From Desulfatitalea sp. (GTDB lineage Bacteria > Desulfobacterota > Desulfobacteria > Desulfobacterales > Desulfosarcinaceae): a DNA stretch of 12,055 nt. The stretch lies in assembly GCA_013041835.1 (NCBI GenBank), contig JABDRH010000368.1, positions 1 through 12,055 on the forward strand. Reading direction: 5' to 3'. Made by a program: the position numbers and the translations under genes. Positions 9,707-12,055 of the stretch are shown piece by piece (within the stretch, counting starts at the first letter, position 1; the number at the start of each line of letters is the position of its first letter). Under the pieces are notes generated by a model. The model saw nothing but the letters and a program-made list of their open reading frames with translations. It searched no databases and had not been told where the DNA came from.

Positions 9707-9735
9707 TTGTCAATAACTACGGATCTGCTTAAAAT
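9707..9735 (+). promoter_or_regulatory. Strong sigma70-type promoter toward dnaA-like gene
   Basis: TTGTCA (9707-9712, five of six -35 bases) and TAAAAT (9730-9735, five of six -10 bases) are separated by exactly 17 nt. Transcription would start near 9742. That leaves a leader of about 335 nt before the dnaA-like ATG, unless a small RNA or peptide is made first. Confidence 0.6.
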
Positions 9736-9829: not shown

Positions 9830-10042
9830 TTATTTGGATTGCGTTAAGCTTCCTTGAGGAGAATTCACGTCTTTCGTGATTGACACCCCATACGTCTTGT
9901 CATATTTATCCAACATACTTTTCATGAGGCGCCACTTTTCTTCTAACTCTGAAATTCCTTTATCTAGCAAGATTTCCCCGAGAATCATCTGGATTTCAAA
10001 TTGGTAAAAAGATCGTTTTGGAAACTGTCGCTGGATTGTTTG
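9830..10042 (-). pseudogene. Unrecognised minus-strand reading frame, possible gene remnant or small protein
   Basis: Reading leftwards from 10042 to the TAA at 9830-9832, the frame is open for 70 codons. The first ATG is at 9986-9988 (52 aa), and no Shine-Dalgarno precedes it. The encoded text looks like real protein: an amphipathic, charged helical part (residues such as FYQFEIQMILGEILLDKG, then ELEEKWRLMKSMLDKY) and a polar tail. Codons are AT-rich (TTA, ATT, AAA, GAA), unlike the GC-rich host genes. The family is not recognised. A TAA upstream at 10043-10045 and the missing start suggest the 3' end of a decayed or transferred gene; a small protein with an alternative start is the other option. 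A chance open frame is also possible. Confidence 0.35.
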
Positions 10043-10076: not shown

Positions 10077-11417
10077 ATGGAGCTTATTTGGGAAAAAGTG
10101 AAGTCCGCGCTGAAAGAACAAATACCGTCCAATATGTTCCGCATGTGGATTGAGCCCCTGCGCCTGGCCAAAGTCGACGCCGAAGTCATGCAAATTCAGT
10201 GCCCAAATATCTTTTCACGGAAACGGGTACTGGATCACTTCAACGAACTGATCTGTTCGGAAATGAATCGCGTCGCCGGGCAATTGATGACGCTGGACCT
10301 GATTGTTGCAAAAAACGGAACCGCCCCCGTCGACAAAGACTTGCTGCCCCAGCAGCTACCTTTGCCCAATATGGCGCCCCAGCCCCACTGCGGGCGCCTG
10401 CTGCGCAGAGACTATACTTTTGATCAGTTCGTCGTCGGTAAAAACAATGAATTCGCTTACTCGGCAGCGCTCTCCATGGCGGTTCGCAAGGGCCTGCAAC
10501 AAAATGCCCTCTTTCTGCTGTCCAAAACCGGCATGGGCAAGAGCCATCTGTCCCAGGCGGTCGGCCACAGGATCATATCCGAATCACCGGCGGAGCGCGT
10601 TTACTACATGACGGCCGAAGACTTTACAAACGAAATGGTGACATCTTACAAGAGCAACACCGTCAATTTGTTTAAAGACAAATACCATAATGGCTGTGAC
10701 GTGCTGTTGTTGGAGGATGTTCATTACTTGAGCGGCAAAGGCCGTACGCAAATCGAATTGGCCCACACCCTGGATTCACTATATAACGAGAACAAGACCA
10801 TTATATTTTCAAGCTGCTGTTCTCCATCCGAAATACCGAAACTGAGCGACAATCTGCGCTCACGCCTGGTGTGTGGGCTAATATCCAATATCGAACCACC
10901 CGATTACCGTATGCGATTCAAGATTCTGCAGCGCTTCGCCCAGGTCAACAACTGGCGTATACCCAAGGAAGTATTGGAGTTTCTGGCCACTGAACTGACC
11001 CAGGATGTGCGCCAACTCAAAAGCGGATTGGTCGGCGTGTCCGCCAAAGCCTCGCTGTTGGGGGTCTCCATCGATGTTCCCCTGGCCACCGATGTGATTA
11101 AAAACATCGTGAATCTATCGAAGACCGTTTCCATCGGCAGGATTAAAAAACTAGTCTGCAAGTACTACAATGTCACCCCAAAGGATTTGGTTTCACGCTC
11201 CCGCAAACAAGCCATTGTTCGTCCGCGGCAAGTGGCGATATACTTGGCCCGCCGCTACACGGATCAACCCCTGCAAGCCATCGGCAGAAGCTTCAATCGC
11301 TACCACGCCACCGCGCTTCACGCCATCGGGGCTGTTGAGAAAGGCATGGCGCAAGGCGGCGCCATTCGACGGCACATCGAGTACTTGTCCAAAAAACTTG
11401 AGACAGGCGATTTTTAG
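10077..11417 (+). CDS. dnaA: Divergent DnaA-like replication initiator protein
   Basis: A 446-aa protein with all four DnaA domains. Domain I (1-80) has IWEKVKSALKEQI and W24-x-x-P27. A short linker (81-105) follows. The AAA+ domain III (about 112-335) opens with YTFDQFVVGKNNEFAYSAA. Domain IV (about 350-446) has the VRPRQVAIYLARRYT motif. Departures from consensus: Walker A is SKTGMGKS (149-156) instead of GGxGLGKT; Walker B is LLLED (210-214) with Glu for the first Asp; the Asp-Arg after sensor 1 is C247-C248. The sensor-2 arginine R312 and arginine-finger region LRSR (260-263) are kept. The DNA-reading helix normally reading GGRDHTTVLHA is NRYHATALHA (407-416), one residue shorter with Asp to Tyr and Thr to Ala. 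AAAGG at 10063-10067 serves the ATG. No dnaN or rpmH is adjacent, so it may be a second copy rather than the main initiator. Confidence 0.85.
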   Translation: MELIWEKVKSALKEQIPSNMFRMWIEPLRLAKVDAEVMQIQCPNIFSRKRVLDHFNELICSEMNRVAGQLMTLDLIVAKNGTAPVDKDLLPQQLPLPNMAPQPHCGRLLRRDYTFDQFVVGKNNEFAYSAALSMAVRKGLQQNALFLLSKTGMGKSHLSQAVGHRIISESPAERVYYMTAEDFTNEMVTSYKSNTVNLFKDKYHNGCDVLLLEDVHYLSGKGRTQIELAHTLDSLYNENKTIIFSSCCSPSEIPKLSDNLRSRLVCGLISNIEPPDYRMRFKILQRFAQVNNWRIPKEVLEFLATELTQDVRQLKSGLVGVSAKASLLGVSIDVPLATDVIKNIVNLSKTVSIGRIKKLVCKYYNVTPKDLVSRSRKQAIVRPRQVAIYLARRYTDQPLQAIGRSFNRYHATALHAIGAVEKGMAQGGAIRRHIEYLSKKLETGDF

Positions 11418-11750: not shown

Positions 11751-11948
11751 CTACTGGACGGTGATGAGCATGCCATCCTCCGCAACATATTCCGAAAACA
11801 TCTCCATACGGATATTTTGCTCCTGTTCGATGGCGCAACGGATGCGCAGAACGCATTGCCGGGCACAAATGGGATCGGACATGGAAAAATCTCCGAAGCA
11901 GTCCAATTGTTCTACCATTACCGAAACGACGCGCTTTTCGAGGCTCAT
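11751..11948 (-). CDS. Small four-cysteine protein, function unknown
   Basis: A 65-aa protein starting at ATG 11946-11948. AAAGGA in the stretch just upstream on the minus strand is the ribosome binding site, and the frame's longer upstream extension has none. Cysteines C17, C28, C32 and C38 form C-x10-C-x3-C-x5-C within DCFGDF and DPICARQCVLRIRCAIEQEQ. This spacing could hold a zinc ion or an Fe-S cluster, or make disulfides. A charged helical part (about 33-55) follows. There is no signal peptide or membrane segment, so it should be cytosolic. Its start is only 10 nt after the stop of the partial gene at the window edge, so they form an operon. The style resembles small conserved proteins of Desulfobacterota, but no named family is claimed. 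Confidence 0.7.
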   Translation of the reverse strand: MSLEKRVVSVMVEQLDCFGDFSMSDPICARQCVLRIRCAIEQEQNIRMEMFSEYVAEDGMLITVQ

Positions 11949-11958
11949 TTGTATTCCT

Positions 11959-12055
11959 TTATTGTAAAAGGGCCAACATCTCGGAATGGATTCGAGCATT
12001 GGTGGCCAATATCTGTTTACCTTGGATATCAAAGGGGCCTCCGGCATAATTGCTC
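11959..12055 (-). CDS. C-terminal end of an unidentified protein (partial)
   Basis: On the minus strand the frame entering from the right edge runs 31 complete codons to TAA at 11959-11961. It reads in protein-like fashion (NYAGGPFDIQGKQILATNAR, then IHSEMLALLQ), ending in an amphipathic helix. It overlaps in a different frame the upstream extension of the four-cysteine gene and ends 10 nt before that gene's ATG, so the two are probably co-transcribed. Too little is visible to name a family. Confidence 0.5.
   Translation of the reverse strand, partial: SNYAGGPFDIQGKQILATNARIHSEMLALLQ

Follow-up and report, generated by a model that had tools for sequence, protein, structure and literature searches.

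The dnaA gene of Desulfatitalea sp. encodes a DnaA with a rebuilt DNA-reading helix that is common to nearly the whole sampled order of sulfate reducers to which the organism belongs (Desulfobacterales), and the DnaA box of this order has probably changed along with the helix. On comparative sequence grounds it is quite likely that this protein is the single chromosomal initiator of Desulfatitalea sp. and that its box has evolved together with it; nucleotide is probably less well retained. The gene is most likely ordinary in role and unusual in form, the box having moved with the helix. No description of such a helix in Desulfobacterales, or of such a change of box, was found in a search of the open-access PMC literature. 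The features discussed are listed in Table 1 in coordinates of the window, the term used here for the whole 12,055-nucleotide stretch of DNA that was analysed.

Table 1. Features of the window, with the basis of each assignment.
Feature	Position	Strand	Basis
uvrA, divergent neighbour of dnaA	6914..9493	-	ORF list, profile match
Predicted DnaA box AGTTATTGACAA, core TTATTGACA, G at position 6	9707..9718	-	motif match
Candidate dnaA promoter: TTGACA 9880-9885, 17 bp, TATTTA 9903-9908	9880..9908	+	conserved element; promoter function inferred
dnaA, 446 aa, divergent DnaA	10077..11417	+	translation, profile searches
Walker A SKTGMGKS, residues 149-156; first Gly to Ser, Lys155 kept	10521..10544	+	translation, alignment
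Walker B LLLED, residues 210-214; first Asp to Glu, second Asp kept	10704..10718	+	translation, alignment
Cys247-Cys248; Cys247 at the sensor-1 Asp position	10815..10820	+	translation, alignment
FNRYHATALHA codons, residues 406-416, rebuilt turn and recognition helix	11292..11324	+	translation, 8btg alignment, AlphaFold2 model

The identity of the gene was established by profile searches, in which its product passed the NCBIfam DnaA model TIGR00362 (398.4 bits against a curated cut-off of 343.9) and carried the Pfam domains DnaA_N, Bac_DnaA and Bac_DnaA_C in order, each above its gathering score. Domain IV is present (Bac_DnaA_C, 85.5 bits) and the Hda model reached 85.7 bits, below its cut-off of 194.8, so Hda or a DnaA-like regulator without domain IV was rejected. 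The best match among solved structures in a structure-sequence search was 8btg (277 bits), which we take to be B. subtilis DnaA, and in an AlphaFold2 model (mean pLDDT 78.6, pTM 0.49) residues 399-405 and 410-426 are predicted to be helical and to form the expected helix-turn-helix. A protein search gave 2721 matches, the best 120 of which were close relatives. A preliminary description of this DNA had held that the reading frame was intact and the gene not a dead copy. The frame has zero internal stops, and comparison with seven relatives from the genus gave a dN of 0.18-0.24 with a dS of 2.1, 2.7 or saturated. As read from these rates the gene is under purifying selection, and neither a dead copy nor the relaxed selection that the description had named as a possible objection was found. 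A small ORF 3' of dnaA (window 11751-11966, minus strand), possibly starting MSLEKRVVSV, had no NCBIfam match at 1e-10.

Translation and alignment to 8btg confirmed the helix described earlier, NRYHATALHA at residues 407-416, one residue shorter than usual and with Asp changed to Tyr and Thr to Ala. The recognition motif GG[RK]DH[ST]T is absent and N-RYHAT stands instead; FN-RYHAT aligns over FGGRDHTT with a turn shorter by one residue, Tyr409 corresponding to E. coli residue 433 (the Asp of RDHTT) and Ala411 to residue 435 (the first Thr). Conservation of this region among orthologues had been suggested as a check and was found to be high. In a set of 88 DnaAs of the order, gathered by family score or place without use of the helix and with identical sequences counted once, the turn was of one residue in all 88, whereas it was of two in 37/37 canonical-type DnaAs of the phylum. 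Residue 433 was Tyr in 83 of the 88, Met in three, Lys in one, Arg in one and Asp in none, against Asp in 36/37 of the canonical type; residue 435 was Ala in 85, Gly in two and Thr in one. A further 80 loci had been fetched with patterns that included FNRYHAT and are biased, and their 63 distinct DnaAs were left out of the 88; five of 217 distinct rows (L043, L044, L197, L207 and L247) were dropped as too short. A DNA pattern for the helix matched 18 of 395 genomes of the phylum, comprising 15 of the 17 from the order (the genome studied here included) and three outside it. The two genomes of the order that it missed carry FNRMHAT (G192) and YNRYHAT (G266), and the three matches outside the order were rejected as DnaA, none lying in dnaA. 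Elsewhere, a family designated f46 (L224, L225) reads FNRDTTSV or FNRDSTSV and has lost the usually invariant His434.

The ATP site has also changed across the order. The Walker A and Walker B variants noted earlier, SKTGMGKS and LLLED, are both present on translation (S149-S156 and L210-D214). The Cys-Cys pair reported after sensor 1 exists as C247-C248, but Cys247 occupies the position of the sensor-1 Asp itself and does not follow it. That Asp is found in only one of the 88 DnaAs of the order, compared with 36/37 of the canonical type; the first Walker B position is Glu in 81/88, and the first Walker A position is Ser in 74/88, as against Gly in 31/37 canonical-type proteins. The sensor-1 Asp confers tight ATP/ADP binding on E. 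coli DnaA, according to excerpts of PMC5742627, and its loss predicts weaker nucleotide retention. It is probable, though with less confidence than attaches to the helix and box, that the DnaA of the order retains nucleotide less well than that of E. coli. The window protein keeps K155 (P-loop), D214 (second Walker B Asp), R263 (box VII) and R312 (sensor-2), and the same residues occur at these sites in 151, 145, 143 and 151, respectively, of 151 DnaAs of the order, 63 of which came from the helix-pattern fetch. Because these four are kept, it is argued that ATP would still be bound and used.

In the genome of Desulfatitalea sp. dnaN does not stand beside dnaA but lies on a separate contig (C436, 6981-8093, minus strand), followed by gyrB, with box-like sites approximately 60-230 bp upstream. 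The corresponding region was collected from 60 loci of the order chosen by dnaN family score, independently of the helix; the upstream regions of nine of 60 genomes with dnaN are not in this set. A motif model allowing many sites per sequence collapsed to composition and was set aside for a zero-or-one-site model. The motif found de novo was agTTATNAACAa, with A at position 6 where the canonical TTATCCACA has C; as agTTAT.AACAa it has at that position A 0.83, G 0.14 and C 0.03, and a canonical seed converges on it too. Its log-likelihood was 144.4, against at most 33.9 in 12 dinucleotide-shuffled sets. Sites with C, A, G or T at position 6 numbered 7, 71, 27 and 6 in 350 bp per locus, where dinucleotide shuffling gave expectations of 2.9, 7.2, 3.0 and 6.4. 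The best site exceeded 12 bits in 40/60 regions, and inverted pairs of boxes at an offset of 17 occurred in 12/60 (shuffled mean 0.001 per offset). Canonical TTATNCACA boxes are therefore not what characterises these predicted origin regions, position 6 being C at a frequency of only 0.03, and canonical boxes at the origin of a sole dnaA, which the preliminary description had taken as evidence against its own reading, were not the rule (7 sites with C against 71 with A). No box was found upstream of dnaN in G039, though dnaN there is near the skew minimum. At one locus (L312, G475:C1:5180000-5197905) a cluster of four boxes upstream of dnaN is present in two copies, at 16940-17078 and 17566-17704, 626 bp apart. 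The changed 9-mer of the order is TTATNAACA, with A, sometimes G and rarely C at position 6.

The same 9-mer recurs upstream of dnaA, in sets that include loci fetched with the helix pattern. Enriched words from 97 dnaA loci together with exact counts gave 125 sites of the changed 9-mer in 89/106 loci, as against nine canonical sites in 8/106. The 12-mer AGTTATYAACAA was present within two mismatches in 97/107 upstream regions, in 96 of the 97 on the strand pointing away from dnaA, and the remaining 10 had no match within two mismatches. A seeded zero-or-one-site model of the 107 regions gave AGTTAT.AACAA with A at position 6 at a frequency of 0.96, and a canonical seed did likewise; from random seeds the strongest motif was not the box but a TTGACA element. 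This element, TccGGtTTGACa, is conserved between box and dnaA in loci of the order and is probably the dnaA promoter. A TTGTCA/TAAAAT pair overlapping the window's box had been considered as promoter and was passed over for the conserved element as the better candidate. The window's box has G at position 6, where its relatives in the order mostly have A, and in the window the element begins at 9874, at a distance of 167 bp from the start of the box. Box and element both scored above 12 bits in 79/107 loci, at a spacing of 42 bp in 46 of them, of 165-178 bp in 30, and of 43, 81 and 256 bp in the remaining three. So fixed a register suggests that dnaA may be regulated by DnaA. Of 10 genomes searched for the 12-mer, 7 contained it, with at most three copies in each; a copy lies just upstream of dnaA in G022, G023, G028 and G029, and copies lie elsewhere in G039, G475 and G457.

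The separation of dnaA from dnaN extends across the order. No dnaN was present in any of 91 distinct dnaA loci, 53 of which had at least 3 kb on both sides, while a uvrA homologue was present in 65/91, on the opposite strand in all 65; in a tally with some contigs counted twice the figures were 0/100 and 71/100. The preliminary description had taken the lack of a nearby dnaN as support for a paralogue, but since dnaN is generally missing from dnaA loci of the order its absence carries no such weight. On eight chromosomes in one or two contigs the distance between the two genes was approximately 0.1 Mb in G462 (103 kb), 1.3 Mb in G039, 1.5 Mb in G457, 2.4 Mb in G022, 2.5 Mb in G475, 2.7 Mb in G029, 2.8 Mb in G028 and 3.5 Mb in G023. 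Skew, sampled in 16-20 kb pieces only, placed dnaN near the minimum in G039 and approximately 0.7 Mb away from it in G475, while in G028 dnaN falls within a minimum that is broad and flat; dnaA was at or near the skew maximum in G475 and G028. The region upstream of dnaA, considered as oriC on account of the 12-mer there, was rejected with dnaA off the minimum in three chromosomes. From the sampled skew, the site upstream of dnaA is taken to serve autoregulation and the origin to lie more probably in the dnaN region, a location for which cyanobacteria provide a precedent in the available portions of PMC6323995.

Box models were also made for other types of DnaA. Canonical-type controls (36 loci), under the model applied to the 107 regions, gave TTATC[C 0.63/A 0.36]ACA. 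In the family-by-family models of 500 bp upstream of dnaA, position 6 was C 0.55 and A 0.42 in the canonical type (n=35), C 0.49 and A 0.49 in a family with Asp433/Ser435 (f51, n=6), A 0.94 in two families with Asp433/Ala435 (f66 and f84, n=3) and A 0.96 in one with Asn433/Ala435 (f54, n=5, one genus). The box has also changed in a further lineage, f69 (L370-L391, L223, L227; 24 loci, 21 genomes), which has Lys433/Ser435 (residue 433 Lys in 23, Arg in one) and the box TTWTCTACA, with T 0.84 and G 0.16 at position 6. Position 5 was C in most families and free in the order. Since the Asp433/Ala435 families (n=3) also show A, Tyr433 would not be needed for A at position 6, and the comparison of these few lineages suggests that residue 435 reads base 6. 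Residues 433-435 are among the base-contacting residues of DnaA in extracts of PMC5043019 and PMC7561715, and the sections available of a review (PMC6727663) list bases 2, 3, 4, 7, 8 and 9 of TGTGGATAA as base-specific contacts; base 4 of that sequence pairs with position 6 of the canonical box. The idea of a code is limited by the five families (f73, f74, f65, f43 and f86) in which, split by family, no recognisable box was found near dnaA, and 25 mixed divergent DnaAs from outside the order gave only a weak box.

Against co-evolution of helix and box it might be held that the sole initiator keeps roughly its old specificity, the changed 9-mer being the site of another protein that regulates both dnaA and dnaN. 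A region often has a single strong site, 20 of the 60 dnaN regions have none above 12 bits, and sites with C at position 6 exceed expectation there (7 against 2.9), all of which would suit this reading. The explanation is nevertheless unlikely, given that the motif retains the frame of the DnaA box and its flanking G, with a clear difference only at position 6 (position 5 being relaxed), that a canonical seed converges on it, and that in another family a different helix goes with a different base at that position. It is a good deal less probable that the helix has changed neutrally and that the change of box only mirrors AT-rich upstream DNA. The upstream regions are AT-rich and canonical-type relatives use A in about 0.4 of their sites, but in the dnaN regions there are 71 sites with A against 7.2 in dinucleotide shuffles and 6 with T against 6.4, the 12-mer upstream of dnaA stands in a fixed register, and dN is low with dS high or saturated.

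Co-evolution of helix and box in a sole initiator also agrees with the copy number of dnaA. A search for another dnaA in the genome, proposed as a check at the outset, found none: the window protein is the only full DnaA of a draft of 4.32 Mb in 693 contigs that is 86.9% complete, and its being the sole DnaA is not absolute, since a second gene could be missing from a draft. One DnaA over the cut-off was found in each of 55 of 60 relatives, this genome included, the other five being G007, G008, G010 (split over two contigs), G016 and G034. Exactly one was held by 59 of 60 genomes of the class, again with this genome included, and G477 had none at E 1e-60; the two samples overlap. G034 (98% complete) and G477 (99% complete) lack a full DnaA match despite their high completeness. 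The least probable reading of all is that this is a second DnaA, acting as a regulator or initiating another replicon, and that the genome encodes a canonical DnaA as well. The incomplete assembly lends it something, as do the four genomes of the phylum where the divergent type occurs beside a canonical one, but no second full DnaA was found here, and single copies prevail among the relatives and in the class. The preliminary description had offered both this paralogue and a lineage whose only DnaA and box had drifted; the former finds no support in this genome, and it is the latter that fits, with one DnaA and a changed box upstream of both dnaN and dnaA.

A DnaA tree of the phylum, likewise suggested earlier, placed the order within a divergent DnaA clade, to which its DnaA belongs as far as the sequences of the phylum go. 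In a maximum-likelihood tree of 56 DnaAs the canonical (23) and divergent (33) types were split with 100/100 support and the 12 rows from the order formed one group, also with 100/100; the helix columns were retained, the rows of the order were reduced from 31 to 12, and four earlier rows were left out, of which one was canonical and three divergent, and three had been flagged as long. An earlier quick tree of 78 rows that included those four supported the split with an SH-aLRT of 95 and the order with one of 100. The trees sampled the phylum. Two DnaA matches were found in 11 of 89 genomes and both copies were fetched for five. Four of these, G074 (L241/L242), G082 (L238/L239), G092 (L220/L221) and G112 (L243/L244), have one canonical and one divergent DnaA each, while the two copies of G077 both fall among the canonical type, one as a long branch in the 78-row tree. 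As four genomes hold one of each, the initiator of the order would come from a lineage that elsewhere exists beside canonical DnaA. A wider proposal can be put forward only tentatively. There may be a second ancient DnaA subfamily in the phylum, mostly without the sensor-1 Asp, with an evolvable helix and serving as sole initiator in several lineages, and a box code in which Ala in place of Ser/Thr at 435 restricts base 6, otherwise C/A, to A, the combination of Lys433 and Ser435 gives T, and Tyr433 goes with a lost preference at base 5; the order would then initiate without a tight ATP/ADP lock and with dnaA far from the origin.

In the mechanism envisaged for Desulfatitalea sp. the helix would read the changed box, above all through residue 435, where Ala replaces Thr/Ser, along with Tyr for Asp at residue 433 and the shorter turn. 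DnaA would oligomerise on that box at an origin adjoining dnaN-gyrB and would control its own gene from the box upstream of dnaA. Without the sensor-1 Asp, ATP/ADP may, with less confidence, be held less tightly than by E. coli DnaA, in which case a slow ATP/ADP lock would matter less for the timing of initiation.

Few pairings in bacteria are as conserved as that of DnaA with its box. An order-wide rebuilt helix with a matching one-base change of box, and in f69 another change at the same base, would constitute a natural experiment on the co-evolution of initiator and origin, from which arise predictions of which residue reads which base that are open to swap experiments. There are practical consequences as well. 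Origin finders guided by the canonical box and by the position of dnaA may miss or misplace origins in the order, and genomes of the order rotated to dnaA need not begin at the origin. Should the missing sensor-1 Asp indeed weaken retention, timing in these sulfate reducers would have to be explained on some basis other than the usual ATP/ADP model.

Comparison with the canonical DnaA of E. coli and B. subtilis reveals a common plan. Domains I, III and IV are present in both, the P-loop Lys, second Walker B Asp, box VII Arg, sensor-2 Arg, His434 and Thr436 are common to the window DnaA, and the box of the order has the same 9-mer frame and flanking G. The order differs in its shorter turn, in the change of Asp433 to Tyr and of Thr/Ser435 to Ala, in the loss of the sensor-1 Asp, in the change of the first Walker A Gly to Ser and the first Walker B Asp to Glu, in A for C at position 6 of the box and in the distance of dnaA from dnaN. 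A shortened turn is also seen in 2z4r (FNRSH), presumably the DnaA of Thermotoga maritima. The T. maritima protein has the helix SHPVV and a very different 12-bp box, AAACCTACCACC, whereas the order keeps the 9-mer frame; base-contacting residues are non-conserved and the box changed in this species in the passages available of PMC7561715 and PMC10225481. Cyanobacterial origins, as described in portions of PMC6323995, resemble those proposed for the order in having dnaN as usual neighbour and a lineage-specific box, TTTTCCACA, but their change is at position 3 and that of the order at position 6 with a rebuilt helix. In the Epsilonproteobacteria (core TTCAC) the box has likewise shifted lineage-wide, a shift of which variation at residues 435, 438 and 439 is the proposed cause in excerpts of PMC5043019; there Asp433-His434 is described as highly conserved and the shift is at position 5, in contrast to the loss of Asp433 and the change at position 6 in the order. 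Within the phylum there are also the second DnaAs of G074, G082, G092 and G112, which share the divergent clade and the shortened turn, but those genomes also hold a canonical DnaA and in the order the divergent type stands alone.
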